A stretch of 64,000 bases of DNA from Aphrocallistes beatrix. Lineage: Eukaryota; Porifera; Hexactinellida; Sceptrulophora; Aphrocallistidae. Positions 11,201 through 55,489 of this stretch are shown piece after piece. The notes beneath the pieces are model-generated. The model was not told the DNA's origin. It was given only the letters and a program-made list of their open reading frames with translations, and did no database searches. A program made the position numbers and the translations under genes. The stretch's first letter is position 1; each line of letters starts with the position of its first letter. Location: the NCBI GenBank assembly GCA_963281255.1, contig OY725488.1:8343524-8407523 (forward strand), in the 5' to 3' direction.

Positions 11201-14200
11201 ACACTGTTCTAGATTCGGATTTATTTGATAGAGAAATAGACCATCTCGTGTCTGCTATTAAAATCTTAGATCGACAAACTTGCACCGGAAGAAGTTTACT
11301 GAAACTATTGTTGAGGTGAAAGACAAGTTCTTTATGAATGGTAATTTTGATGAAATTCACATCTTAAATACATTAAGTGATGAAAAAATGAACCTACAAT
11401 CACTTACACAGGAAATGTTTGATATTTCAAACCAACTATTTCAGTTTACCGCTTTAGAGCAACGAATTCTGAATAGCCTTCTAATTTGCGCCGAACTTTT
11501 CCTATGGGCAAATAGAATACTGAAAAACGAAACTGATCTAGATAACCTCAGAGAATTAGCACTAAATTCGAGCGATGGTTCTCCATTTGAAATTAATTGT
11601 ATATCTTCATTCTACACCTTATGCCAGCTCTACAGTCCTTTCATCTATGGATTTAACCAAGAAAGTTTCCTGAACAAACTATCTGCAGTCCATTGCAATA
11701 TTGAGTCACATGGAGATGTTCGATATAAACTACCAGAAATCTATAAAGACAGTGCATCAGAGCCAAATATTGAATTCTGGAAAACTCTTGAAATAAAACA
11801 CACCTCAACTGGTGGTGACACAATTTCTCAAATTAATCAAATAATGTTAGAGGGTATATTTTTATTGAATGTTGAAGAATCATCTTGCAGTGTTGAAGAT
11901 ATTATCTCTGTACAAATTACTCAAGATTATATGGTTATAACCTATTCTCTAAATGAACTGAAGGAGATGCAGAGTGAAACTGTTCTGATTTCTCCTGAAA
12001 TGCATCAAGGTTCAGTCGGTGCGAGGTTCCAACATTTGTTGAAACTGATTCTTAGTCTTTCTGAAATCGTTTTGAAGTTCCATAAATCTGGAGATGTGCT
12101 GTTTCGAAACAAAAAACTAGCTTACTCTTGTGATTCGACTGATATTTTGTCAGAAGATATTAGTTTCTTGAAAGGGAAGTACAATTTTTTTATTATTACG
12201 CTTGAACAAGCACGTCAAAAGCATTATTATCTAAACTTTTTTACTTCTTCACAGATTCTAACAATTCAGATAGAATTAGAGAGGTTACGGAGATTTCCTT
12301 CTAAAATAATAGAAAAGCAAGTTTTTTATTTGTTAACCTTCTTATCAGAAAACTTAAGCGAGGAAGATGTTCGTGGTGCATTCAACAGAGTTAATAGAGG
12401 ATCTTCATTATCTGGCTACAGTCCGATTAGTAGCATAGGTTCAGTTGCACCCGACGAAATTGAATCATCCACTAGAATATCTCAGCAATCCAGGTTAGAA
12501 ACTTCACTCATACATGTACCTACATCAAAACCTACTAATGATAAACAAATTAATGAGCCATTATCCCTCATGGTCTCTCCACAGAATAAATATGAATTAG
12601 ATGAGACTCTTATCAAACATACATTTGAATCACGACTGATTAAAATGTATCAAAATCAACCTGAGTATATGTGTTTGAGTAAACTAGAGAAACTTTTTAG
12701 AATTTTAAGTTCAAAAAATTATCAAGAGAAACGAAATTTTTCTTTAACATCAAGTGAACCCAATCTTATCTTTGTTCCCAGTCATCTCATCATGGATTCC
12801 ATCTTATCTCTCTATTACCCTTCAAAACAGCTCCCATACCCCCACGAAGTTCTCATCTGTTCTGAAAAGACTACTCTAGAGGAAATAGAAATATTCTGGA
12901 GAAGATCTCTCAACAATGCTTCTAATGCTTTTATTTTCTGTTTAGCTTCAATTGAGAAGTTGAACTATGATGTTGCAGTGAAGAATGTATCTTCTCTTAA
13001 AGGTTTTCTCAACTCTGCAAGTTCTGACAAATCAGAATTTCGATTAGTGTTGATATGCTCTGAAGAACACAAACATTCTAGTTACATGGCATCAGCTCTT
13101 GTCAGATATGAACGAATCTTATCAGAAATCCAGAGCCTAGAAAATCTCAAATATTTTGTTTTTGATAACACTTCTTCTTGCACCAATCGTTCATTAAAGA
13201 AAACTGAACATTTTCCAATGAAATCAGCTTCGACTGTCGATCCAGGTGAATGTTATGTAAGAATTGTATCATCTGAATCACATGGAAATGGAAAATCTCT
13301 CGCGATAAAGCGATGGGTTGAGGCTTTAAAAAATTTATCAAAAACTGTGGATCCCCATTTAACTCCTTGTACAATCGTATCTCTCTATGAGAGTAAAGGT
13401 TGTGAAGATAAAGCTACTGACAAACTCCTCGCTTCACCAGTATCAGCAGGTGAATATGGACGAATTTATCATTTTGACATTATTTGTTCATCAGATAAAC
13501 AGCTTCGCTCATTTCTATTCAAGTTGCTCATTATGAGGACAATTTGTGACCGTTCAGGTCGTATTTATCGCTGTAGCAAGAATAACTACTATGTCATTGA
13601 AGCTAACATGTCTACACTCACTCCAGAACTGATGCATTTCTTTGAATTATTTCCTGTTTGGAATTGTTTGGGACCAAATGAAATATTAAGAAATGAAAAA
13701 GGAAGAAAATTCTCGGAAATCGAGGGAATAACTTTGCGCGACCCTATCGAATTTCAATCTGAACCATTCCAGAGGGTTTTTGCATATCTATCCAAATTAG
13801 AGTCTCGAGCGAACATAGACGGGTACATATACACAAATTGTCCAATTCAGAAATGCGAAAATCGATTAGATCTTCTTCTGAAATACTATGATCAAGATAA
13901 TCCATCTTGGAGTGAAGTAAAACATTTTATTTCATTTTTCAACAAACAGCTGATTGCTTGTGAAGAAAATATTTATTGTCAATCATTTAAAATAGAAAAA
14001 GCTTGGGGTGGATTAAAGAAGTTTTAGTGGATTGTATGGTTCTGATGTCAAAAGATTTTACAACTCCCTCACTCAGGAATTCATTACAGTCTCCGCCTCC
14101 AGATGCAGTTGCTGGATATGGCATAGACGAGAATAGGAAGTGGGGACATAAAAACTATCCTAACATTTTCATAAATGAAGATTTTCAGTCAATGACTTTC

Positions 14201-17200
14201 TTTGGAATATCAATCTCTCAAGATCTAAGTAAGTTAGATAATTTTGATTCAAACAAAATAATTGCCAAGAAGGTTATTCCTAAACAGCTGTACAATCTAC
14301 TCAAAAAGAATGAAGTTAATTTAGAAGAAGATTTTCACAATTGGGATCGCCATAAGATGCTTTCAATATTAGTGAATGTACTGGGTGTTCCATCTAATTC
14401 CTCAGATGCTCCTCCTGATCCAGATCCTAATTACGTACTGACTGTTGACAATGTTAAGAAAATACTGGCCATTCATATGCGTTTTCGTTCTAACATTCCT
14501 GTTATCTTAATGGGAGACACGGGATGTGGTAAAACGCGGTTAATTCAATTCATGTGTAAACTTCAAGCGAGGAATCCTGATCTACACAACTTAGTTATTC
14601 TCAAGGTACATGGTGAAATCACAGAAAATGATATCAAAGACTCTTACAGAAATGCTTTAGAATTAGCTGAACGGAATTCTTCAAACAATATCGATACAAT
14701 TCTTTTCTTTGATAATGCAAACACAAGCTACTCGATTGGATTGATAAAAGAAATGCTTTGTGACAGAAGAGTTGATGGAGTGTTCATTCCAAATCGTCTA
14801 CGATTACAGTTCGTAGTGGCTTGCAATCCTTATCAGAGACACTCAGACAAGATGTTAACCAAGCTGACTTCTGCTGGTCTCGGAATGCTAGCTTCCAATG
14901 ATCAGGTGAGAGAACACTTCATGGATATCCCTCTGAGGGAGCTGGTATACAGGGTGCTTCCTCTCCCCAACAGCCTTCTGCCTCTGGTGTGGGATTTTGG
15001 AAACTTAACTCCTGAAAGTGAAAAATCTTACATCTACAACATTGTTGATGCTAATCTGAATCACGATACTTCTGAACAACTAGTATCATATAGTAGAGTT
15101 ATTTCAGAGACGTTATATCACTCCCAAATGTATATGAGAAAGAGGAGAGATGAATGTTCCTTCGTTAGTTTACGAGATGTTGAGAGAACTGTTCGTGTTA
15201 TGTTGTGGTTCTACAAATGGCTGCCAAATCTTCAGATCTCTAACATGACACTTGACCTAATAACGTACAGTCTCATCTTAGCTTTAGCTGTGTGCTATCG
15301 AGCTAAACTGAGAGAAAGGAAGGAATTCGATGAATATGTCATATCTAATGTTGAGCATCTTCGAAATCGGATAACCGAGATTTCTCTAGTAGTTAGAGAG
15401 ATAGATAAGTTTCAAGATGTTGTAGTCAGCATGATGAATATTGGAGAACACATTGCTATAAATAGAGCACTGAAGGAGAACTTATTCATGATGTTCGTGT
15501 GCATTCAGTTGAAAATTCCTTTGTTCATCATTGGTAAACCTGGAACTTCCAAGTCATTAGCCAAGTATATCATCAGTCATTCGATGAATGGTGATCTCAA
15601 CATTCACGGGAAGAAGGTTGCTGGTATTCAGTTCACACAAGTTAGCATGGAATCTTATCAATGCAGTCAGCTGACTACTTCAGAAGAGATCAAGTCTCTA
15701 TTCAGGAAGTGTGAGACTATTCAAGCTCAGAATGATCCTTCTTGTGTGGCATGTGTCGTGTTAGATGAAGTGGGACTAGCAGAAGATTCCCCAAACTTAC
15801 CTCTGAAGATCCTGCACTCCCTCCTTGAAGATGGAATGGATTCAGAGGGTCAGGGACCAGGTGTCGCCTTTATCGGTCTTTCAAACTGGGCGCTCGATCC
15901 CGCTAAGATGAATCGGGGCATCATGCTGCATCTGGAAGATCCAACTGCTGAAGAATTAGTTAACACTGCACACTCCATTATCAAACCTTGTGGAGAGAAA
16001 CACGACAGTTATTCACAGACACTCAGTCCTTACATTAAGAGTTTGGCTGAAGGATATTTGAAATTAGTAGAAATGCAATTATTGAAGAAAAGACATTCAA
16101 AAGATTATTTTGGACTCCGTGATTTCTATCATCTCATAAAGATGTTATACTTCCTCTCTAAAAAGTTTAATGTACTTAACAAACGGATAATAATTTATGC
16201 AATTGAAAAAAATTTCAGTGGAATTCCTGATATCAATGCAGTTGTGATATTCAATCAATACCTCAATATTCCAGATTCTGAAGATGATATTGTTCTTCTT
16301 TCTGATCCTCTATCCTTAATAACTTCTTCTTTAGAGTCCACATCTCATGAAGATCCATACTTAAGATCTAGGTACCTTCTCCTCTTGACAGATGGTTACG
16401 TAGCACTGGACATCTTGTTTAACTCGCATATTCTGAATGAAGACACTAAAGTGATGTTTGGGAGCAGCTTTCCTCTTGACCAGGAGTACTTCAGCATATG
16501 TCACAATCTGAACAAGATCAAGATATTCATGGAGATAGGGAAGACAATGGTTCTGACGAATCTATCCAATGTCTATGAAAGCCTTTACGAGATGCTTAAC
16601 CAGTTTTACGTGGAATTGTTCGGGAGGAGTTGGGTGGATATCGGGATTGGATCTCGTCGCATTAAGTGTGCAGTGCACCCTGACTTTCGACTGATAGTGC
16701 TCGCTGACAAAAGCACAGTTTTCGAGAAGTTCCCTCCTCCTTTAATCAACAGACTGGAAAAGCATATCTTGACCATTTCTACCATAATTGAGGACGATGT
16801 AGTGATGATTAATATTGTTTCCAAACTAACGGAATGGCTCCAGCATTTCAATACAGTTCACATTAATGTACAGAATGACACACTTCCTTTTATGGTCTAC
16901 TCTACAATTAATAAGTTAGGGTTGAAAGGAAGAGAATTGGAATGGGAAGAACATATTTTGAAATTTGTAAAATTTGAACTCCTGAAGATAGTTACTCCCA
17001 TTTCTATTCTTCGATTATTAAAGTCAGATTTAACTAGTGAAGTTACTGCTATTTATCAGAATTGCTGTAAGATTAAACTTTATAGTCTCGTCGATTATTT
17101 GCAGGAAATACCAAATATTAAAAGATATTTCAATGAACAATATCGAAGTATTACTGGCAGAAAATTTATTAAGGATAGTCTGAATTATGTCTTTCATTCA

Positions 17201-17737
17201 GACTTTAACTCCAGTACAAACGAATATATTCCATTTCTATCGTTTGTCACAACTCACTCAGTCCTCTTGACAGAATCTGACATCTCAGAAATAGCCAACA
17301 ATCTAACCGCACACTTTGAAATGAAGCCCAACATCTCCCTAATGAATCTGTCTCAGTTCCGAGCAGAAAAAGAATTTATCTTTTCTATCAACCAGGACAT
17401 CTCAATTAAATTGAATGAGAATGAGAAAAAGATGATCATAATTCAGTGTGAAGAAAATAGTAAAAATTCAGATCTTATTTCGTGTGCTAAGTATCGATTG
17501 GTTGAAATTATTATGGAGAATAATTGTAATTTAAATTCGAACTTCTACTTTATCTTGATCATCAAACTGGTACTGACAGAACCTGGTTCTGGTTGTTCTA
17601 GTTTCTGTGGTGAGCCTTGGGACAGTGTGTATATTGATGAACTCAGAAAATCTTATCTTTATCTTCTTCCTCCATTTGATCAAATCACTCAACTCTCTGT
17701 TGCTCAAATATTCGACTATCATTATCAAGATATATCG
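8271..17737 (+). CDS. copy B exon 1: N-terminal arm and AAA+ core, frameshifted
   Basis: Starts MAQFCGDIKC; C5, C10, C25 and C28 form a zinc-ribbon-like set. Open segments lie at 8271 to about 8608, 8695-9285, 9263-10813, 10819-11319, 11280-14027 and 14003-17737, joined only by shifting frame. Key sites are an AAA2-like P-loop SHGNGKS (about 13270-13300), AAA3 Walker A GDTGCGKT (14513-14539) with FFDNAN in place of FFDEAN (14705-14722), CNPYQRHS (about 14823), AAA4 Walker A GKPGTSKS (15533-15560) and Walker B VVLDEVGLAEDSP (about 15755-15792). NWALDPAKMNRG and PPPLINRLEKH follow. The donor is GTTTGT at 17738, after DIS. Confidence 0.88.
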
Positions 17738-19904
17738 GTTTGTTCCCCTGTTATAATCTAATAATTTATTTACTCATTGATAACGATTTAATTTAATTAA
17801 TAGAACCTGACATCTATCTCTTCACATGGAGACAAGTATTACTTTAAGAAGCGGAGATTGCTCCGTTGCGTGCAGAAAGCTGTCTCCAGATTATTTGACC
17901 CTTCTGAAAATACCAATAACAGAACTGCGCTGAGGATTTCTAGACTTGCTCAATTTCTATCTCATCATGGTAACACCTATGTTCAATGAACATCAAAAAT
18001 ATATTTTTAGTATACGTTTATAACACCTTTGCATAATCAAATTATGTTTTATTTTGTACCTTAATTAACCTCCTTTTTAAAAATGTATCCTAGTTTCCTC
18101 AATGACCATTAACAGCACTACTATTTGTACTATTTTGCTTCCAACTCAGTGATTATTTTGAATAAGTAAACAATAAATTTTACTCAACTTATGCTACGAT
18201 AGGCCATGATAGGATTCTATAAGAATTCAACAATTAAACGGAACTTAGCCAAAATTAGAGAACAAAATGGTTTGCACTGTTCCATCAAATAATTTATTCC
18301 AGAAGTCCTCATTATTTGTAATTAATCCATTAATGCCCTAGAAAATCCTCTTAGATTTGCCACTTTCAATGCTGTGCATTTTGTCTGCGGGTACCTTCTC
18401 GTTTGATTTTAAGCTCATGTACTATATATATTACGTATATACATATATATTACGTATATACTCGACCTTTTTATACTGTTAATTTAATAAAATGGAAATA
18501 GAATGTTAATTGTGCTATTTTAAGGGGAAATAAAATGAAATTTCGCAAGAGGGTAATATAGTGAAAAGTAAGAACCTATGCCTTAGAAACCAGCATAAAC
18601 TCTAATAGTTCAATTTGAAACTTCTTAATTGTCTGATCTGTTAGGTAACTTGTGGTTGTGGCGGTCTTACTAGTTTAGAACCTAGTCGCTGAAAATATTC
18701 AATTTTATTCTTTAACCAATTTTACACCTTATCGATGTTGTATGGGGACTTGTACCTTTATTAACGAAATGATTTACTTATCTAGAATTAGCTGACCTAA
18801 CGTGTGATAAGATTTCCAATCTCTTGAGTCAGATCACCTCTACAAAGTACAGTGCAGAATGGGCCTACATCAAAGCTCTAGAACCTGACTGCTCCACCTG
18901 CTGTGTTAATTTCATGAAGACTTTGTCTTTATATATTGATGATCTCATCGTACCACTGCTGGTAGGTATCTTGGCTATCCTAGACACTCACAACAATTTG
19001 GATTTACCATTTCATAAAGAAGAAAATATTAGAGAACTCTGGGGAATGTTTTATCGAGATGAGAATATAATTAATTTGAGTTCTTTGATTACAGAGCGAT
19101 CTTTGAATTCTCCTTACTCAATTCTAAATCACTCAAGAAAGATAAAACTGGTAAAAAACTGTTTTCCTTTTTTTCAGAATATCTACCAGCAGGTCAACCA
19201 TCTTTTTAATCAAATGTGCACAAATCTTGGTAAGTTGATTGATTTCTGAAATATTTATGACATTATTCATTCTCATAGGCGTAACTCCAAGGGTGGCAGG
19301 GGTAGAGTGCTAACCCGTCACGAAAGATTATGTTGACTTGGGGTGGCGTGCCATCCCAAGTAAATTTTTAAATATATCATCAATAAGCATGTCAGCTTGC
19401 TTGGGTAGAACTGGAGGAGAGCTGGGATGGGTACATTCGAGCCTGATAATCTTTTTCCGAGAAGTGATGACCCCGTCCTCAAGGTGATCGCTTTCAGGGC
19501 CAGACAGATCACCCTCGATCACAATAGAGTAGTCATTATCATCAAATTCGTTCGAGGAATCAATGTCTGCGCCAGCGCCAGCTAGACTAGTTGTTTGATG
19601 GTTGTCCGGGTGGGTGAATGTAAATATGAGAGGTTGAACGCTTATCTTAAGCTGGAGAAGGTAGTTTATTCAGGCTAATGAGGCACAAAATGTTAAAATA
19701 AATTTGTCCAGGGCGCCAGGGAGTGACCTGCCCTCCTTTACCTCCACTAATTAGTATTTCTAGTTAAATCACATTTAAACCCCGTCGGAACACAATTAGT
19801 CGAATCTTTTTGATATATATTCAAAAATCTCGCCACCCCAGCTAATCATGAAAAAATCTAAATAGTTACGCCTATGTTCATTCTATTTCTGGCGCGTTTA
19901 AAAC

Positions 19905-27200: not shown

Positions 27201-30200
27201 CAATTATGCATAATTATTGATTTTGCAAATTTGTCCTAATATATATATATACATTAATCGAGTTTTAATAGTAAGGATATATATATATATTTATTTATTT
27301 ATTTCAGATAGTAACTCAGGAAAATGTGAATTTCAAATCTTTATTAACAGTCGAATCTATCTTAGACGCACTGAAAATATTCACGTGAGTAATTTTTCGA
27401 TGTATGTAATACATATTTGCATTCTGACAAAAGCATTGGTATAATTTATTACAAGCGCACACTTGTGTAGTCTGGCTAGCGAAGATCTTCGTGGGTGTCT
27501 GGGAATATCGACGAATTCAGAAGCCCCTACGAGTGCCAAATATTGATTATGTTCACTGCCATATTTCAAATTTTCATATTTTGTGAATCTATTGTAAATA
27601 TAAACCCTGGCTATGCCCCCAGCGGCGCAACATAAAATGTCATGTTACTAATGCAGAAGCATACTTCCATTCATAGGTGTAACTAAAGGGTTGCTAGATG
27701 TTGCTGGCAACCCCAAACGAGAAGTGCTAGTTATGCCTTAGCTTCCATTCCGCATATGTTCCTATGGCGTGTTTTATTTAAAATATTTTATCCATGCTGC
27801 AAAAAATAAGGGTGCGCCATTGTCCTAGTGTGTAGAACGTCTATGCTTAAATAGTACAATAACATGTTGGCTACTATTGGTGGACTGATACATATATATT
27901 TTCTCTATTCATTTTGTATTCTTAGATCGGTTAAAACAGAAGATATCATCCACGTGTGTAATCTTAAAAATCAGAGTAAAAAACTGTCTTTTATCCTCTT
28001 CGAAACTTGCAGGTGCGTATTTGCTAGATTTCTAGAGAACTCGTTATTTCATTACTTCCAATCTGTTAATTCGTAATGTTGCAAAAATTTGTAGTTGCCA
28101 GCTTAAGATGTTGGATTTCTTCCAAGATCTTTCTTCCCGGTTCTTCTTGCAGATGCTTTTGAATATCACTTTTATAAAAGGACTTACCTCAATTCGAGAA
28201 GATCTCAGAAATTTTCTGATTGAATTTTTGATTAAAAATCAAATTCCAAAAAAACAGGGGACAGATACACTAGCCCCTCTTTATCTATTCAAAGACAAAG
28301 AAATGAATCCTTCTCCAGCTCTTCGTTGTATTCTTTTAGAAGTTCTATTGAGAGACAGGTAGGAATCCTTATCAATTCAGATATTTTATTTTCTTCTTTA
28401 GGGAAGATAGAACTGTAGTTTTAGAGATCTACTTTTAAAATCTAATTACTCTTCTGTGGCGGACAAATCGATCAAACCAATCAGGGCATGGTCTGACTCT
28501 GACCACTTTTATAATACTCTCTTCATATCTATATTTCATCTGAATTCATGTGAATGAACTAAATTTTTATAATTTTAGAAATGAATCAATCCAGAATCAA
28601 ATAAGAGAAAACTTAAACGCGAACTGCTTGATGTTGGGACAAGAAGAGCGCACTTATGGAGACAATCTGGCATGGATATATCTTCAAAGTTTAGAGGTAA
28701 TATCTTTATATTATAACACTATTATTTCTGTTTTGAGTTGGAAATGTCATGTTAAATATCAAATGGTGAGTCTAGAAAATGTTTAAATTTCTTTGAAAAT
28801 CCCTATGCATTCCTAAGGCTCGCAAGTCGCAACACAAACTAGCGAAGCGTACTATATTCGCCTAGATTTACCAGGAAATTTTGCGTAATTTCCGGATTAA
28901 GCCATTATCCTTGGGCAAGCCATAAAATTGGTGTCCAGATATTATAAATAGCAAATCCCAGTTTAAGTTAATAATATACAGTGTTCTGTAGCATTTATGA
29001 ATCGCAAGGCCAAATTTCTACAACCGAAATCTGTGCCTGCCACAAAAATAGGGCATAATTTTAATAAATCAATAACTAATTTGTAGCTTTACAACTTATT
29101 GGGTATAAATATTATGATTTTAAAATGCCTGATAGCTCTAGTCTATATTGTAGAAACTACATACAAGAAATTAACTAGGATACTCGTCTACTTAGAGTCA
29201 AACAAAATATTCTATATCTGTTACAGTTAAAACGTCGAATCAGTTATTTATTAAATACTCGAAAATGTCAAAAGGGGAGCTACGATTACGAAACACCGAT
29301 GAAATAGAATCGTCAAAGGATGCCTACACCCAAGCGTTTTCCTAACGAATTGATAAGATTAGACATAATTTACATAAATATGCAAAATTGCGACTGTGCA
29401 TTCTATTATTTGATTACTCATATTCACATATTATTTGCAGCATATATTGTATACACAAGTTTATAATTATATACCTTTGTATATATCACAGGATTCGTAT
29501 CATCAAAACCTTTCAAAAAACAAAGAGAATATTAGTAACGCTTTATCGAAATTTGACACTTTACTCTGTCCCATCTCGTCCTCGAAAGCTTTCACTTATG
29601 AAATCATCGAATCAGTAGCTGCAATACGCTTTGCTATACACTGGATTGTAAAATGGAAGACTGCCTTCCATTTACGAAGAAAGTACCTTAGGAGTCAGAA
29701 AGGAGGTTTTGTGTCAGAGAACATTTCTCAGAATCAAGACATTCCAGTAAATAACGAAGAATTGAAGCAATTGATAATAGATCTCGAAAGATTTGTGAAG
29801 GAAGATCCAAATATCCAACTATTCTTATCAAAGACGTTTTACTTTCATGTTGGTTATGGTGAAATGTTAAAATACAAGAAACATGATGATATGAAGTGTT
29901 TTTTTCCAAAAAATTACGGAGCAATCCAAGAATCAAAGGTTAGTAAATTTATAAATCCAGTGGCGGGGCTAGTGCACCGTCACTGATGGGACTAAGTCCG
30001 GCTAAATTGTATATGACGGTGGTGGCGCAACACTGCAATTAGGCATTGCAACTTGTTGATCATTCAAATACTTGTATTAGATAATAATTTACCTTTTTTC
30101 CCCGAATAAATACTGGGGGCTTGAAGCTCCGAAGGTTTCAATAGTATGAAAAAAGCGACGGAGCATGAATAAGCGGAGGTTTGAATAAGCACCGGAGCTA

Positions 30201-36200: not shown

Positions 36201-39200
36201 ACATCCTCCCTGCTAGGCCACTTAAATGTTCTCGTTCGAGGGTTAAAATGCATTAGTTTTATTTCTGTGTCCCCTTCTTCATCAAACACCTGCTCAATAA
36301 TGTCAAACCACCAATTGTTGTCATAGACACAAGCCACATAATTTCCAATTGAGGCTAAGGGAAACTCTTGCGCCTCTTTTTCAAAATCGAATCTGAGTGA
36401 AAAATTTTCTTGATCACTTGTTCGCATAATATCGAGCACAGACGAATTCAATGGTCTGAATCGGTGAAAACTTCTTGTTCCTGGGATTGTCTTGGCACTC
36501 GCAAATCTAGCTTGTAGAAACTTTCGTTCCGTATCCACGTCGCTTTTGGACATATAAAATAAGGTTATGTCCCTACTATGTACTTACAGAAATTAAACAT
36601 TCCTTCAGGAGTTATAATTTGGTTATTATGCGTTCTCTTCAGACTTTCGATTGCTGTAATACGTTTAACAGTTCCTCCTATGCCATCACAAGGAGACTTC
36701 CCATGTGCAGTAGCAAAAAAATTCCACTTGGCATCCAATCCAAAGTCGTCCTTATGTTTACACAAATTAATGAAATTGTACTTATTTTTGTACTGAGCTG
36801 CACATCCGTCTGAAAAATATTCAATTTTACTGATCTTGGGAATATACTTTTTGACGTAGCTGAGGAGCATTTTTTGAATTAAATAAACCATTGAAGTATC
36901 GTGGTGCATATCATCAGAAATAAAGCAGAATTATTGGTGCTTCAACAGATTGTGAACTTTGAAATAAATTACAATTGGGTGAAGGTTGCTTGCTGCTTGG
37001 ACCAGTGATAGCTTTGGATTTCATCTTGTATAACGAAGGTAAAGTTTTCGGCGAAGTCACCAAGACAAATGAGTGAATTTTCATCAAGATTTTCCATACG
37101 CATTTTAAGATATTTCGATTGTGCTTTTGCAGTATAGGAGTGTGTTGTGAGGGTGTCAATTGAACTGACAATCATATCTATTAAGTGATGGAGAGAAGTT
37201 GAGTCAGATATGAGTGTAGTTCGATCTGTACCATTCCATTGTTGATAGACAATATCAGAATCAGCCTGAGTTTCGAGAGAATCGCAAAGATGATCTCTAA
37301 GTTTGTCAATCCCAGGACACTTCTCACACCTGAAAATTATATATTTGTATACATACGATTTTCCCCATATTTTCTGCATAATTCCAAAAGTAATATGATT
37401 AAATTTAATCATTACAGAAAGTTTATTAACACTACCTGTGTATCATGCAATCTCTGTTTTCTTGTGCACACACAGCGTAATTCATCAAGTCTGAGTAATT
37501 TTCTTTAGTTTGGATTGCATCAACTAACAACTTTACATTTTGATGAATGGCACAAACACATACTGAATGAGTCCCACTTGCACCTGGTAAAATGCACCAT
37601 TTAGGGCGTAGAGAGCAAAATTTAGAGAATCCGATTTTAACCTAAAAAGACTTGAAATGACTACAGAGATTTTATATTTTAGAATCTTGTAATTAAATAA
37701 TATAATATAACGTATGTATGATGTTAAATACAGTCGACTCGATAATGCGAACTTTACAAGGCAAAGGCAAACTAATTACCTCAGGCTGTTTCTGAAACTT
37801 CTGCAAAAACTGTTGGTATAGTTCTTTTAAGCTAAGTAGCATTAGACGTTTTTGTTTATACTGCTTTCTCCCGACACTGACAACATCCTTTTGACCAAAA
37901 TGTAGTAAAAAATTGGTTAAGTAAATAATATAACGAGATATGTTGAATTACTAATTGTACAGTCACACCCCACATAAATGCATGAACATGAGAATATGCT
38001 AATTTGTAAGGCGCCTAAAACACTCTCTACGCCCCTTCACGTGCCAATACAAAAATTCAAGGGAACTCTCCACGAGTTGCAAATAAGTTTTTTAGACAAA
38101 AACAAATAAACAGTAAATACTGCTACTAACCAGGCATCTCACGCGAATATTCATCATCCTCAATAAAATACGCGTAGAGTGATGTCTTTGATTTCCTTAG
38201 ATAGTGCTTTTCCCTTCTTGGGTTGTGGAAATGATAGAATGCCTTTTTCGTGAAATAGCATCTTAGCTTGTTTTACCTGATATTCTGTTACCTATACGAA
38301 AATAAATAATGTTAGGGACTCGACACAATCGCACAACTAAACAAGGCACTTATACCGTCTATAAAATGCCATAATGACTAAATTCATTTTTTCTAGCCTG
38401 CGTTTTAATAGCTCTCTAAAATAGTATTTTCATATTCGGAAAAAACTCTGCACACTCAGGGAACAAATAATTTTGCTCCTTATTACACAAATGCATTTCA
38501 AATATAGCTATCCAAAAGGACAATATTTGTTTGATGAAAGTCTATCTTTAGGTTTAGAAATACGTACGATAATTTAGAATTTATTAAATGTTTACTCTAT
38601 CAAACAATTACCTCGAAATATTCTTGAATTTTTGGACCAGTTGCTTGGCGGGAGAGTTAACAAATGAATTATAGTTCTTTTATCTTCTGATTCGTGTATT
38701 TTAGCTTTAACCATTGCCATTAAGCTATCAAAGTTGGCTGCTTTTTCAATAATGTCACTATCCGGAAATGAAGGGTCATATAGTTTAAAATTTGTGTCTC
38801 TACCAGTATGTTCGATGTTTGAATCTTCTCTAAAATTGAAAATACATACCATTATAAACTCAAAAAATAGATTCCATTATAAACTCATTTACAACTCATC
38901 TAAAAACTTTTATCCTTAAATACCTTGGTGATTTAGATACAAGTGCTGAATCAAATAGTTCCAGCTCGAGAGGTGCATTGGATGTTGCTAGGTGTACTTG
39001 TTTAGTGAACTTTTTTTCGATACGTTTAAGTTCAATATCTGGGGAATCGAACCCCGGGCCTGTATATTTTGTTTCTTCCTCTTCAACTTTGTCCTCGTCA
39101 AAATTCCGCAACGTTTCAAACATTTGAATCTTGCACCGGACGCACAATCTTTTTCCAGGGATCACGGTAACATTCAGAGTTTCGCTCAACTTTAGAAATT

Positions 39201-42200
39201 CGCCTAATCGTATTTCTCTTCCTTGCCCTAAACATTTATAGTTACAGGTTAGTCACGATTTCCAACTTTTAATTAAGCAGCCTATTAAAACGAATTAGAG
39301 GAATATCTATGAATACAAATTTTGTTGAGACACTGCTTACCTTTGGATAAATAGAAGACTTTTATGTGGAATCCGAAAGGATTTGCGCAGGATCTTTGCA
39401 ACTGCACATAAGAAGTTAAATACATAGCGAAGTGATGGCCACAAATATTATCAAGGGTGGTTAACTTTAAGCTTGTGCGTAGCACAATTAGCTGTTGATC
39501 GTTTTGATCGAGGTCACCAAACATCATGAGCTTATCTTGTTTGATATAATAGGATTTTAAATGGCAAGGAGTTTCCAGAAGGATGCCAACTGTGCAATTT
39601 GGGAGTAGAGACTCAATAGAGAATGAAGCCATCTTATAATAATAGTTGATTGAAGTTAGAGCAACGATTGATATGAAATAGAATTAATTGTTTTACAGGT
39701 CTATTATATTATATTATATATAGTAATATGTTGCTGAGTCTTCGAAAATAGGATATAAATAACTATCGTATTTTATGTTACCATGGTGATCTGAATGTAT
39801 TTAACTAATTATGAATCTTCACAACACACTTACTTGTGTAGAATAATATTATATTTCAGGGGTGAGTACACAATTATTTGTGGTTTCTAATTCATCTTAC
39901 CTGGAGTGCATACCAATTGTTCTTTTTGTGTTGCCATGCTGTATACAATATCACTGATGAAAATGTAGGATAGAGACAAAGTAATTAATCATACCATCGA
40001 TTTTTGTAATTTCAATTTATTCGCATATTTTGGAATAGAATGAAGGATAATGATTTAAAAACTTTAAAAAGTGATTTAAAAGTAAATAAAAATCAATTCT
40101 ATCATAATTCTTGCGGCTAACAAACAACTTATCAGCATTTTTCCAATTCATTAGCATAACTTACGAATGGTAATGTATTTTGTAAATAAGAAAAAATACC
40201 TCTCCAGTTTTAATATATATTAAATAACAATCTATTTGCTAGGTTTTCTGTAAATATCAGACAAAACTTTTTTGAAAGATTTTTTTCGACCTGAAGAAGA
40301 TTTAGGATGAAAATGTCGGATTTTTACATTAAAAGCAAAAATTGACCAGTAATTTGCCACTTTGGGGTATTTTTTAGTGCCGAATTTGAATTCTACGAGG
40401 TAAATTATACCTAGAAAGTTATAAATATCATTAAAATACTTTACTACGAGACAATAGTTTTGAAATTTAAGTGGAAAGTCGATTGGGACCAAATGAGTCC
40501 GACACTCAAAAGTCGAATTTTGTACGTGCTATAATTTGGCTTCCAGAAGGATTTCAGCGCCAAAAATTTCAGGTTATCCTTACCTTATATTGTTGTTTCA
40601 ATGTTGAAATTTTTGAACGATTCGGAGGAAATAATATTTAGGGTGGGTGAAATGATATGGAATGCCTCAATATGGAAACTATTGCTTTCAGCAGGGGCGC
40701 CGAACTTTTCGAAATCTATGAGAAATTTTGGAGTTCTAGGGGGGTGCTCAGCACTAAAATTTGTATTGCATCTATGCATCTCCGAATCCAGGGGGGGGCT
40801 CGAGTCCCCCAGCCCCCCAGGGCTCGGCGCCTATGCTTTCGAGTACGATACTCGTATATTTACTAAAATTATTTTTTTAAAAATATTACAGTTCTGAAGC
40901 ATAAATTACATACCAACTTTGGTTGAAACACTTAGTAGGGCTGTTTGGTTTTTGCAGCATTGTGCATACTGACGGGAGTGGAACACTTCCATTCCATAAG
41001 TGCATTTCCCCATTAATACTTTAGATGTTTTTTAGGAAAAGCAATTGAGAGAATGCATCTACAATATTCTGCCTAAAGAACCCATCGACTTACAAACATT
41101 AGCTACTGACATCATGGGAAATAAACTCTTCAACTTACCTCAGTTAAGGATATCACGAGACACACATCTAAATACAGTTTTCATAGCAGGTGTATTGTGT
41201 CACATCGGTGTTTTTCTGCAGCTGACACGTGGAAACAAATTCTTTAAGCCTCTCACACTAATTCACTTCAATCCAACTGAGCTTCATAATCATTTTTTTC
41301 CCGCAATTTCTGAGGAAGAGTATACATCAACCAAGACTAAAACCTTAACAATCAAACATCTTGCTGATCCTTCTGAATCAAATGGAAATGTAATGAACTT
41401 TGACTGTCGACTCTAATGACTAATATTCGCATGGGCGTAAATTTTCTCATTTTTCACTGAAAATGATAGGAGCCAAGAACGACGGAATGACGGCGAGGGA
41501 GTCTGGGGAGACCAGCTCCCCAGACCTTTTGTTGAACCTTAGACACTCAGACATAGATTTACATCAAGCTTTACGCCTATCAATATACACATGCGTTTTA
41601 TTTTTGGGATATCTCTGGTCAACGATTATAGCATAAATCAATTTGGACTGCTGATCAGCGGAATAGAAAATAATAATCTGATATTGTCTGTAGAGAACAA
41701 GCAAGACCAAGTCTTGCTCAGATGAGTCTACATCAAATGTCAGATCTCAGACCGGATTGGAGGAATCAAAAATGGACAGTTATTCAGCTCCCATACACCC
41801 ACATGTTCTCGGAGATCCATTTGGTAGATCAACTTCGCTAGCTGGGATTAGGTATGTATGTCTGATATATTGCATGGCAGTGTTGCCAGATATCTCCAGC
41901 ATCAGAAGGCCAAATTGCTCACTAAAATAGGCCAAATTATTCCGAAATCCTCCAAATTCCCCAAATGTTAAATTATAGTCTTATCAGAATATACAGTGTT
42001 GTATCTAGGACTCGGGGTGCTCAGGGGCCAGTGGCGTAACGTAACCAGAATCATTTGCTCTAACCTTATTAAATATTGAATAATTGTAATGAATTTGGGT
42101 GTTTACATCTAAATTCCCCCTCCGGATCTCCGGATACCCCACCGCTAAACTATCTAATGATAGTTTAGTTTCGATGATAATCTACACAAATTTTGAGAAA

Positions 42201-45200
42201 TTTCTATCTGAATATACTAAAGTGTTCATTTTCTAGTCATATAACTGTAATGCTTTAGATATTAAGACTAACAATTTGCATAAATCTTATTGCATTGATT
42301 TACAAGCAATGTTAAGCAACTCTCTATGAAACAACCCGGATAAAAGTATAAAATAAGACGAAAGAATGGAGTTCAAGTTTCTGAAGGCGAAATGGCAACC
42401 CTGTTACATGATGAAAGTGTGTCTTGTATGTTCTTTTAGGAATTTGGCGCCTATATCAGTAGCTCTCATCCGCACGTTAATGCACAGCATATTCATTTGG
42501 ACTCTACAGTCGAAGCACAAGGAGCATCCTTCTGAAATCATAAAGCTGGTTGAACCTATTTCACCTAGAAACACCTACTTAGAATATTTCTATCTCCACC
42601 TAGTCCAGGATATCATAGATATAACCACCATCAGTAACAACACATTTGAAGAAGCTATTCTGCACGTACACTTGCTAATAGATCTGATAATTCATCAGGA
42701 ATTAGAGCCTAAACACGACGATCCACGTACGTACTATATAATTATCGAATTAAAAAAATGAAATTTATTTACTATTCTTTGACCTATGCTCCATTATATT
42801 TATACAAAAACCCCCAACTTTGTATGGCTCCTCAGCCTAAATGAATCAGAAGTGAGCAGCAAATTATTCCATATATTTAAATAATATTTATAAACTCACA
42901 AAATTTATTTTCCCACTATTGAATGAAATACGTACTGTCATTAATGAATGAATTTTATATAGTTCGGATCCCCACATATTTATTGACCTCAACTGATCGA
43001 GATGAATGGGAATACTTTTTTGAAAATACTTTTAGTAACCAATTTGAAAAATCTAGTGAAATGCTACTTAGAGAAATAATGCTGATTGTTATTTCAAAGT
43101 CGGACAACTGTGACATTCCTTTATTGAGGTAAGTCTTATACAATCGCATATATGGTAAATATATCTAGGTATAAAATATGCGACATTCTAAAGAAGTGGG
43201 AAATTTTGAAAAATTTTCTACCTCGATTCTTTCAAACATGCACAAATCTGAAACTGTTGAAGATTGAGGATTTGGTCTCATTTGAAGAAATCGATTAAGC
43301 AAGATTTTCCACTTCTAAAGAATGACACAAACAGCTCATTTTGGAAATTATTGAAAAATACTCACCAGTTTTTGTACTTTTGGAAGTAAAACTAATTTGA
43401 ATCTCTTTTTGCCCGAATCCTAGGCTACTAAAGATATCTTTAGTAGGCTATTCCCGAATATGTTATTTTACAATTTAAAAAATAGACATTTTAGTGCTCT
43501 AAAGATACATACAGTCAGGTTCGCTTATTATGAACCCGCTTAATATGAACATTCTTTTATTATGAACTAATTCTCTGGTCCCAATTGAACAGGTTCCATA
43601 GGATTTGTATTAGGTCCAGTTCGCGTAATATGAAGTCTCTCTATTATGAACATACTTTTTGGTCCCAAAGGTGTTCATAATAAGCGACCCTGACTGTATT
43701 TATCTTATTCGTCGAAATCAATTTGGATAGGATATTTTAGTATGAACTATCGATTAAAACCAGGGGCGGTCCCAGGGGGGCATTTGCCCCGAGTTTGATT
43801 TTGTGGCCCCGGATTTCATTGAACAGATCTAAGCCAAATCATAGTAAGGACCCGGATTTTTTCTTTTGGCCCCGCCTTGCCCTGGGCTTGGTAAATTCCT
43901 GCGACTTCCTCTGATTAAAACCGTTTACCTTTTGTTGCGATTGACAGAAATTTTAAAATTCAAGCATTTATGTCAATATTTTGAATAGAATTGGTACCGA
44001 ATATATGGCAATTTAAAAGTGTTTTTAATTTATCAAAGATGGAGACTCTTTTTGCGATTAACACTTGTATTCTTAGTTACCAATATGCTGTTTATCTAAT
44101 TCTGAAATAGCACAGAAAATCAGTCCTACCACACAGTTGCAGTAATACCATACATCAAATAATTTTTTTGAGATATCATAATAATTCCATGGTGGAATGT
44201 GTAGTAACCAACATTTTTTCTAATGGCGCCATTTCCTATTGTAGTATAATGATAATAGCAAAGAAATCTTATGTATTTTTTGTAAATCACAATATAGGCT
44301 TCAAAGAAAATCTCTAAAGTTTATTTGAGTGAAATATGGTGTGGTTTCTGGAATTCATATACAGTGAACTTTGGATTTAATGACATCGGCTTTAGTGACA
44401 GTTCACTAGTAATGACTTTTTTCTCTTGCCTGTACATCCACAAAAGTATTTTGTACACAGCATACTTCGGGTATAAGAGCTGTCAGATAACGACATGTTT
44501 TCTATGCCCGCTACCTCCAAATTCCATCGGATATTACGACTTTAGTGTAGTCTGTACTGTGTACTGCAAAAAAGCTTACCGTACATGCCTGCAGCTCCTG
44601 GCTAGATTAGTCTAATTAGTCAATAATTAGGTTTTGATCATCTATTTTTTAACCAAGTAAAAATTATCCTGTTTTGAATAAACAGCTGGCTTCTTACCAC
44701 AATGAAAACAGTCCGTCTGCGAGCTCCTAGACTTCTTGGCAGACCGACTGCAGAGTCTACTGCAGCAGTCCTCAATTACAAACTTCTTCCAGTCTGTTGA
44801 CAAACAATGAGGTCTATCTATCAGTTTTACTAGTACATTATGTGTATTGGCTTTGTGCTCACAATAATGCTGGACCATATCAAAAATGAATAAATTTAGG
44901 GTCCATCAAGGTGTATAATACATATTTGGAGCTACTTCGGATTCAGTTACATATCGGATAGAGTGACCTTTTTGCTCGCCCAAACAAGTGTCGCTAAATC
45001 CGAAGTTCACTGTATGCGTAAATATCATGCGATATCAGTCAACCATTCGAACTGTATTGTTATCATAGTTTAATTAATACTATCTTCAACATCACTCTTG
45101 TACTTCATTCCCCATTTCCAATCTACAATTTAGACTATTTTCCCTCAAGTTCACATTCACCCCCGTTGAGAACCACTTGTTTAGATTATCTGTGAACGAT

Positions 45201-52023: not shown

Positions 52024-53490
52024 CTAGTTAATCGGTTATCTAGTTAATCGGCATCTCCCAGCAATTGAGGAGTTCAGTCAGTTGCCTCTGTCCAGCGCAA
52101 CCCTTCAGCGTTTATTCTTCGAGATGAAGACGAAGAAAGCAACTCTTTTTGCTGCTTGTAGCTCCGTCGCTGACGAGATAATGTCTTTTTGGGCTCGTAC
52201 AAACATCTTAACAACCGAGAAACCTCATATTGTCAGCAAACTCAAGGTTCTCTCCATCAGCAGTACTTCCGAGTTGCTAGGAATAAGCATCGTAAGAGTG
52301 CCACAGCAGAAGTTATATACTCAATTTACGATGCAACTCTGTATGCTGTTTGATATCCCCATGCAGACTGGCAGAAAGCGACCAAAGTACTCGTTGACCG
52401 CCAATTCCTTGTTGATCAACGTGGGCCCGGAAGATGGCAATGTCTACTGAGGACACCAACTTCAGACGAGTTACTGAGAAATGCCATAAACGCGAGCTGT
52501 CAGAGCAACAACGTCTGATAACTGAATCAGAGCCTTGCATTTCCAGTCAATCCAATTGGACATATTACATAGCGAGTGACAGCGAGTCTTCCATCACTGA
52601 CAATGACTATACTCCAACAGTGGATACATTACGTAACATAAAATTGTTGTCCCGGCGCTTGCTACAGCAGGACTGAACGTCAACCAGCTCACAATGTCTC
52701 GCTCCACTACTATGAAGCTCGTAAATAGTAGCGTGGGTTGATGCCTGCGAGCGTGAGGCAGAATTTCCAGCCAATGGTCCCACTGATTGCACATTTCGAC
52801 GGAAAGCTTTTGCCAAATCGAGAAGGGATGAAGAGGGATCATCTGATAATTATGTCTGGTCTGGATACCAGTACTCGACAAAATCAAAATATGGTGGTGG
52901 CTATCTTAGCCACCATTTTACTTTCCTAGCTGCTTTTAGCCACCAAATTCTAAATACGTGCTACAAATAGGCCAGTACTTCATAAAATTTGGTGGCTTAT
53001 CGTTAAATTTTAGTGGCTTTCGCCACCAAACCACCAGATTTGTCGAGCACTGCTGGATACGGAGAAACTGCTGGGCATCCCTATCTTAACTAGTGGAAGT
53101 GGACAGGTGATGGAGTTCCTACACGAATGGTCAGGAGTCGAAGATAATCTGGCATGCGTTTGCTTTGACACAACAGCGAGCAACATGAGAGTACACACAG
53201 GAGCGATCACAATCGTTCAGGAATTCTTCAGACGCAGACTGTTATTCCTTCCGTGCCGACATCACACGCTGGAGCTGTACGCAGCTGCAGTCTTCGACAC
53301 CTTTACTTCGTCGGGACTAGAGATAGAGTGGAACCTGCTGAGATGACTTGGCTTGAATCACATCGGGACGAGGTCGTGGAGAAACTTAACTATCATTTGG
53401 ATGACTATAAAGAATTCGCTTATCTGACTTTTCGCTTGTTGGGGAAAAAATTGATGTCAAATTTTCTGCACCGGAGGCTTATCATCTGAG
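52024..53490 (+). pseudogene. degenerate transposon protein (FDTTASN / CRHH family)
   Basis: Broken plus-strand frames. LPLSSATLQRLFFEMKTKKA (52082 on), LCMLFDIP then in another frame VDRQFLVDQRGPGRWQC, HFDGKLLPNREGMKRDHL (near 52790), and LLGIPILTSGSGQ with CVCFDTTASNMRVHTGA and LFLPCRHHTLELYAAAVF (53060-53330). I recall this motif series from repetitive invertebrate proteins, likely transposase-derived with an RNase H-like fold. Multiple stops and frameshifts, plus a MITE inserted at 52869-53052, show it is dead. Confidence 0.65.
52869..53052. mobile_element. 184-bp hAT-type MITE inside dead transposon gene
   Basis: CAGTACTCGACAAAATC and GATTTGTCGAGCACTG are inverted ends; the target duplication CTGGATAC (52861-52868 and 53053-53060) is 8 bp. 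Removing one duplicate rejoins the host frame between MSGLDT and LLGIPIL. Confidence 0.88.
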
Positions 53491-53744
53491 AATGAAAATA
53501 AATCAAATTGTCATGGAAATACTCTTATGCCATTTCCAAAAATTGGATAATCAGAAGTTGACAAGGAGATTTGTCTAAATAAAAAAGTTCTATTATTATG
53601 AAATACAGGTACTCTATTGGTTCTTATCAAATAAAACACAGTTCATTCCGACATGTACTCCATTATTTAGAAAAATTGGATAATCGGACTGACTAGTACA
53701 GACATAATGACCTTGAGACCTGTTAATAATGTCAGTTTTAGCTA

Positions 53745-55489
53745 CTAATTTGAGGGAGTTAGTTTAGTATATAGGTCCAACTTTTGAGAGGCGAATATCC
53801 CTGTCTCTAGACGACACATTTGCTTGTGCAAACCAGTAGCAGTATTGCAAACGTTTCCCTTCTCATTCCTATCTTCTGCAATTTCGTTCAGTACCTCCAT
53901 TATCACTCTATACCCTTTGAACACTCTGCGTGGGCTGACCAACGGATGTTGATTAATCTTTTTGGTACTGGCAGTTTCTTCTCAGCTAACTTGGTGTTGA
54001 GAAGTTCATAACGCGAAGTGGATGTAGTGAAAAATGTATAAAGCTCTTGTACAAAATCGAAAAATGCAACAGCAGATCAACAGGAATCCACTGCAGCCTG
54101 ACCCACTAAATTCAGCGAGTGGCTGAAACATGGAATAAAAACAGCTAGGCTGTTTCTCTCTCGTAATATTGCTTGCATTCCGTTATATCTACCACTCATA
54201 TTCGACGCATTATCGTAAGATTGACCACGACAATCACCAAAATTTATTCCGTTCTCCGCCAGTACGTTCAGAAGCGAATCGGCCATTCTCTGCCCTGTGT
54301 GACCACGTTTATCAAGAAACGTTATGAATCGTTCAACTGACTCGTCGACTTCAATGTAACGCAATATGACTGTCAGTTGATCAACATGAGCGATATCAGG
54401 TGTAGAATCTACTGAAACAGAATAATACTTGCTGCGTTTGACACAATCTACTATGACCTTCAATGTCGCTTTCCCCATGATTTCTATTAATTATTCATAT
54501 ACAGTTGATTACAGATAGTTGGTGTGACCACTGCCTTTGTTCGCATGTAAACTGATATGTTCCGCTTAAAACTTGTCATACTCAGTGATCAGTTCTAAAA
54601 TACCCACAGGAAATTTCCGTTTGTTGATGATCCAACAATTTCATCTGCTCCACGAAATGCTAAGCCACGCTCAGCAATTAGTCTTGTCACGCTGACACAC
54701 CTCTTCAGGATATCCTGCCAGTAGTTGCACCTATCTTCTAAATGTTTCTGTTGTTCAACATCGATCCTATCTAGGACATTCCCCCTCTGAATCAGACTAA
54801 TTGTGTTTGCAGTATGACGTAGTGACAGTTCGTGTTTAGCAAGACGTTCACCAGCATGTTGTGCTATTCTCCCGCCTTGGTCGTGTATAATGTTACATAT
54901 GCAAGCTCATGGCTGGAGATGAGCAACAACTGACTAAAAATTGCCTTAGTACATCGTCTTATTTCGTTTTTATGTCCTGATGTCAACTGAATTTCTGACT
55001 TATCGAATTCACCCTCATAATTCTGTAATTTCAATATTTCTTCACTCGACCTGATTGCCCAATAATCGATCATCATGTTCGTTGCTTTACCTGGCCATAA
55101 TCCAATATCATATCCAAATCCATCAAAAGGAGCGACTCTAATCACACCAACAGAATCTGCCGAATTGGCGATATCACCAATACTTAGATCGTTCAGTGGT
55201 GGCAGGATAAGCAGATCCTTTTTTTGTGAAGAAAAATTGATGTGATGCATTTATTTTTCTTCTGTTCAGCTTCCTGTCGTATCGATTTCTCCCTGGCGGC
55301 TTTCCGTTTTGATGCCCTGTTTTGACAGAAATGGTCCGGGGGGACCATTTCTGACAAATATCCATGGTTCATGACAGAAATTGTCCCCTCTGCAGATTTG
55401 GTCCCCCCTCTTTTGCTATATTGTCGAGTCATCCCTGCTAGCATGATAGTCTTTATTTGATTATTACGCTTTATTGTCGAGTCATCCAT
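53745..55489 (-). pseudogene. hAT transposase remnant (ZMYM1/DUF4371-like)
   Basis: Minus-strand pieces in order: KRKAAREKSIRQEAEQKK (about 55290), GYDIGLWPGKATNMMIDYWA (54864-55250), LAERGLAFRGADEIVGSSTN (about 54650), SVSVDSTPDIAHVDQL through CRGQSYDNASNMSGRYNGMQ and CFSHSLNLVGQAAVDSC (54077-54478), then RWSAHAE and TGLHKQMCRLETGIF (53745-54010). This is the order of hAT transposases of the ZMYM1/DUF4371 type. Frames change several times and stops intervene. The dimerisation domain at the C-terminus was not seen. Confidence 0.8.

Follow-up and report, generated by a model that had tools for sequence, protein, structure and literature searches.

Probable erosion of the RZ finger inside retained exons of an RNF213-family gene in the sponge Aphrocallistes beatrix

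RNF213 has been studied as a ubiquitin ligase whose chemistry resides in its RZ finger, and a member of the family that appears to have no such finger raises the question of what became of the module and what the protein may do without it. A gene of this kind, encoding a giant immune-type ATPase, lies in a 64,000 nt stretch of the hexactinellid sponge Aphrocallistes beatrix (GenBank assembly GCA_963281255.1, contig OY725488.1, positions 8,343,524 to 8,407,523 of the forward strand), referred to below as the window. Alignment identifies it as an RNF213 paralog: the plus strand open reading frame (ORF) at 13991-17758 aligned with RNF213 sequences of the PDB over 1235 residues (E about 3e-231). 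An earlier note had placed exons 14 and 15 on either side of the RZ site and seen no RZ motif in the intron between them, the RZ finger being missing. Instead, the intron was found to retain a conserved, eroded exon, here termed 14b, and we consider it highly probable that substitutions inside retained exons eroded the RZ transthiolation finger in the ancestor of what is now an expanded clade.

The flanking exons are positioned as the note had proposed, on the basis of profile matches to RZ-bearing paralogs and to RNF213. Exon 14 (41036-41389, plus strand, within ORF 41036-41416) encodes a segment of the E3 (ubiquitin ligase) shell that runs to FFPAISEEE, and then a tail where the RZ finger would have its first half. 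Its donor, AAT|GTAATG, is in phase 0. Exon 15 (42440-42726, plus strand, within ORF 42357-42761), placed through profile alignment with PDB RNF213, encodes the shell segment past the RZ position, NLAPISVALIRTLMH..., behind a phase 2 acceptor, ttttag|G. When these exons were used to search the genome (100.5 Mb, 28 contigs), 45 matches were grouped into 25 loci, a lower bound on copy number as only the best candidates were scored. Fifteen were RZ-less, with ten in tandem on C1 (8.10-8.47 Mb), that of the window among them, and five on C6 (0.54-1.20 Mb), and ten (L053-L062, on C4, C6, C16 and C19) were RZ-bearing. The sequence AATGTAA occurs at the exon 14 donor site in all ten C1 copies. A profile of five of the 15 RZ-less proteins matched one of four of the ten RZ-bearing proteins over 232 columns spanning the finger region (E 8e-34), while the shell matched PDB RNF213 weakly (whole-sequence E 0.0086, with RNF213 chains as five of the six hits). 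A profile was needed for this, single-exon phmmer searches of PDB sequences with exon 15 and with 29414-29983 having returned no RNF213 match. Joined directly, as the note had supposed, exons 14 and 15 clash in phase (0 to 2) and the frame shifts into several stops, whereas exons 14, 14b and 15 together leave it open.

The Pfam RZ profile (PF20173) gave 16 matches in the genome: a single one on C7 and the other 15 spread over loci on C4, C6, C16 and C19. No match fell in the window or elsewhere in the C1 cluster. As 12 of the 16 were half-fingers of 18-29 residues, the search does see half-finger exons, though not all of them: at E 0.001 it missed both halves of L053 and the second halves of two C16 genes, and so was not exhaustive. 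A looser pattern, C-x3-[HD]-x-Y, recovered the first finger half in all ten RZ-bearing loci and was absent from the plus strand of 41036-42726, in agreement with the earlier observation that the intron contains no C-P-N-G-H motif. Two plus strand motifs were set aside as chance occurrences: a CxxC at 42420, which shares the frame of exon 15 but precedes its acceptor, and a CxxxH at 41191, outside the frame of exon 14. The C7 match (L001, C7:4962256-4962390), the best in the genome, lies within a single open frame of 2031 residues that might be ZNFX1.

In the RZ-bearing paralogs the finger is itself split between exons, as in L058, where boundaries read by eye place the end of exon A at CPNGHPYFIGN|gtaagt, in phase 0, followed by exon B, CGG..CPDCG...GYLLGAP...GE, ending in phase 2, and by exon C, starting SLSPAS. 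Across the RZ-bearing loci the first Cys, the CxxC and the Cys at the catalytic position were each found in ten of ten and the His in nine, and the Cys and His finger positions were invariant in four aligned RZ-bearing proteins. L057 (1450-1464) carries CPNGD in place of CPNGH, a zinc-ligand His having been replaced by Asp in an otherwise RZ-bearing paralog; no exon 15 was found at this locus in the stretch examined (C4:1470000-1475000).

Exon 14b was discovered by comparing loci over the interval that begins at codon 94 of the query for exon 14 (41315 in the window) and extends to exon 15. Close copies align broadly across this interval; in the distant C1 copies L039, L042, L043, L046 and L047, alignment is confined to the tail of exon 14 (not in L047) and one internal block, corresponding to exon 14b, a short part of which is common to four of the five C6 copies. 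The exon was found in all 15 RZ-less loci, with a length of 149-164 nt that is always 2 mod 3. Its ends were set by a script, which took the nearest upstream in-frame stop as the 5' limit and AG|GT as the 3' limit; for the C6 copies, the first in-phase GTA[TA] was taken as the exon 14 donor. At every one of the 15 loci the scripted 5' stop proved to be a TAG resembling an acceptor, and this and the lengths serve as a check. In the window, exon 14b spans 158 nt (41694-41851, plus strand) between the acceptor CTGTAG|AGA and the donor ATTAG|GTATGT, runs from phase 0 to phase 2, and encodes RTSKTKSCSDESTSNVRSQTGLEESKMDSYSAPIHPHVLGDPFGRSTSLAGI(R), in which codon 1 is Arg, CxxC is absent and the tail HVLGDPFGRS..IR is retained. 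CTCAG|ACC was considered as a start but set aside in favour of TAG|AGA, which agrees with every C1 copy and with the acceptors of the RZ-bearing genes. Judged from sequence, exon 14b corresponds to the exon that, in the ten RZ-bearing paralogs, encodes the latter half of the finger and with which it shares its location and phases, a similar length, and a similar tail (HVLGDPFGRS was aligned to HLLGNPLERQ by the profile pair).

The segment between FPAI/FPTM and exon 15 comprises 80 residues in the window and 82-91 in three RZ-bearing examples, as against 63 in L047 and 52-54 in the C6 copies, in which some length has consequently been lost. CxxxH and CxxC were each found in none of the 15 RZ-less segments and in all three RZ-bearing controls. 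In the window, CxxxH has gone from the end of exon 14 and CxxC from exon 14b, and the set of three Cys and one His that binds zinc in an RZ finger is not found. When exons were joined into proteins, PF20173 matched both of the RZ-bearing controls tested, out of ten (E 9.3e-13 and 5e-21), and neither of the two RZ-less proteins tested, out of 15; hits of MA3 and SNX-FERM on RZ-less proteins fell below the Pfam cut-off and were treated as chance. The transthiolation Cys is C4462 in mouse RNF213 (PMC12075652), and C4516 is the predicted one in human RNF213 (PMC11549300); these are taken to be the same residue because the offset in ligand numbering is constant. Aligned with human RNF213, this catalytic Cys falls on the first codon of exon B. 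At the corresponding codon 1 of exon 14b the window has Arg; the remaining RZ-less loci, 14 in number, encode Arg (four), Gly (three), Ile (three), Ser (two), Asn (one) or Cys (one). The Pfam scans with their controls, the residue comparison and the tree described below support the view that the RZ zinc site has been lost, as has, for the gene in the window, the Cys at the catalytic position. The claim that the finger is missing therefore stands in that no working RZ module was found, but not in that an exon was lost; substitution appears to have eroded it in place.

A tree of 24 of the 25 loci (L057 excluded), built from fewer than 190 columns of exons 14 and 15, with the finger region removed, and rooted at its midpoint, grouped the 15 RZ-less loci as one clade (100/99) beside the C16 pair, nested among the nine RZ-bearing rows. 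The same picture emerged when human RNF213 was included with nine of the 15 RZ-less and six of the ten RZ-bearing rows, the midpoint root falling on the human branch. A single loss of the RZ finger would be the simplest history. Selection was estimated from the ratio of nonsynonymous to synonymous substitution rates (dN/dS), pooled over pairs that are not independent, which makes the 95% intervals rough. For exon 14b the ratio was 0.39 (0.24-0.64) in seven divergent C1 copies and 0.42 in all ten; within C1, the body of exon 14 gave 0.29 (0.17-0.46) and its tail 0.51 (0.25-1.08), and exon 15 gave 0.42 in C1 and 0.20 in C6. These values indicate purifying selection on exon 14b among the C1 copies, where the former finger exon is still constrained as coding sequence. 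Mean dS among the C1 copies was 0.08 in exon 15 and 0.47 in exon 14b, as if gene conversion had homogenised the former.

On this evidence the finger would have been eroded, most simply once, by residue substitution in the ancestor of the clade, its exons being kept, and the clade would then have expanded to the 15 loci found. Exons 14, 14b and 15 could be spliced in frame, presumably also in vivo, to give a linker within the E3 shell, whose length is close to that of the finger in most C1 copies and falls short of it in the C6 copies. Lacking zinc ligands and, at 14 of the 15 loci, the Cys at the catalytic position too, such proteins would not take ubiquitin from a ubiquitin-conjugating enzyme (E2) by the RNF213 mechanism. 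The window protein should be without RZ-type ubiquitin transfer, and hence lack that ligase activity, because published RZ mutants fail to ubiquitylate: RNF213 H4509A and C4516S do not ubiquitylate bacteria or vacuoles, though Toxoplasma gondii vacuoles are still coated (PMC11549300). The most likely role, we infer, is that of an ATP-dependent scaffold or coat-forming RNF213 without RZ chemistry of its own, or that of a protein acting with the RZ-bearing paralogs or regulating them.

The dynein-like AAA+ core, as aligned with PDB RNF213 on the plus strand, has both P-loop Walker A motifs. In the first P-loop domain of ORF 13991-17758, Walker A is intact (GDTGCGKT, 14513-14536), and Walker B (14705-14725) reads FFDNANT in the window gene, with Asn in place of the Glu of human RNF213 (FFDEANT). 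Both motifs of the second, from Walker A GKPGTSKSLAK to Walker B VVLDEVG (15533-15775), are intact, leaving this as the only site with its Walker B Glu. The mouse RNF213 Walker B mutants E2449Q and E2806Q showed unchanged autoubiquitination; with human E2488A and E2845A, Listeria was not coated (PMC11549300). A more far-reaching possibility, which we put forward tentatively, is that the whole clade (15 loci found, ten in tandem) dropped both ligase modules, RZ and RING, to become ATP-driven pseudo-E3s, with a mostly polar linker under constraint where the finger had been and a first AAA+ site changed so as to bind ATP but not hydrolyse it; these may be components of pathogen coats, decoys, or regulators of ligase-competent paralogs.

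Several observations weigh against erosion followed by loss of ligase function. L043 keeps Cys at codon 1 of exon 14b, without CxxxH and CxxC; L039 and L046 have Ser there, and mouse RNF213 C4462S retained autoubiquitination (PMC12075652), although none of these loci has zinc ligands. The trees have long branches, flagged as such by the tool. The dN/dS of exon 14b is 0.93 (0.61-1.45) in the five C6 copies, where the exon may only be tolerated. L046 (C1:8431500-8437000) has an in-frame TAG in exon 14, possibly the mark of a pseudogene or an assembly error. A weak in-frame donor within exon 14, GA|GTATAC, could let exon 14b be skipped. Ligase activity could also be provided by another module or by a partner E3.

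That ligase activity is kept through a further module, be it a RING or a new catalytic site, is unlikely, even if vertebrate RNF213 also carries a RING whose isolated form is reported to be functional in vitro (PMC11549300). The same source describes RING inactivation as leaving the ubiquitylation of Salmonella and Listeria unaffected and that of the T. gondii vacuole only partly impaired. No C3HC4 consensus was found on either strand of 10-52 kb, by a regular expression that an intron-split RING would escape and that had no positive control, and a Pfam scan of ten ORFs at E 1 returned nothing, again with no positive control from RZ-bearing paralogs. Loss of the RING is compatible with both scans, and the AAA+ machine without zinc ligase modules put forward in the earlier note is plausible, its RZ part being supported and its RING part unproven. 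A pattern of two CxxC motifs is present at 37802-37864.

Decay of a pseudogene, with the loss of RZ merely a part of it, would account for the relaxed appearance of exon 14b on C6, the stop in L046 and the Walker B without its Glu; it is nonetheless improbable given that in the window both the three exons (14, 14b and 15) and the long AAA+ ORFs are open, that dN/dS in C1 is low for the exon 14 body and for exon 14b, and that the length of 14b is 2 mod 3 at every locus. Outright loss of the RZ exon with direct splicing of exon 14 to exon 15, the arrangement first proposed, draws on the lack of an RZ motif in the intron and on the weak donor, and is very improbable in view of the phase clash between the conserved donor and acceptor, the stops that follow, the absence of GT from the weak donor in three of the ten C1 copies, and the conservation of exon 14b under purifying selection in C1.

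The eroded gene shares with human and mouse RNF213 (PDB 8s24, 6tax, 7oim) the aligned AAA+ core and, as a weak profile match, the E3-shell segments flanking the RZ site, and differs from them in lacking the RZ zinc ligands and the catalytic-position Cys and in having one Walker B with DN rather than DE. From the RZ-bearing paralogs of the same genome, alike in exon layout, phases and post-finger tail, it is distinguished by their retention of the finger. Engineered RZ mutants (H4509A, C4516S and delta-RZ), which also have no working RZ and whose published phenotype is the loss of ubiquitylation, are laboratory alleles, whereas the sponge loci constitute a natural clade of 15. Multiple copies are known elsewhere, as with six RNF213-family genes in Atlantic salmon (PMC12234341) and an expansion of the family in symbiotic bivalves (PMC9993606). 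Among the open-access papers listed, no title or opening of an abstract describes an RNF213 clade lacking RZ, which does not establish its absence from print. Natural, expanded and mostly intact paralogs without RZ chemistry would separate the ATPase and coat functions from ubiquitin transfer, and would make it possible to test directly if RNF213-like AAA+ proteins serve a function that needs no ligase activity.

Elsewhere in the window, short ORFs on both strands of 52028-54906 resemble, as judged by eye, remnants of hAT-type transposases.

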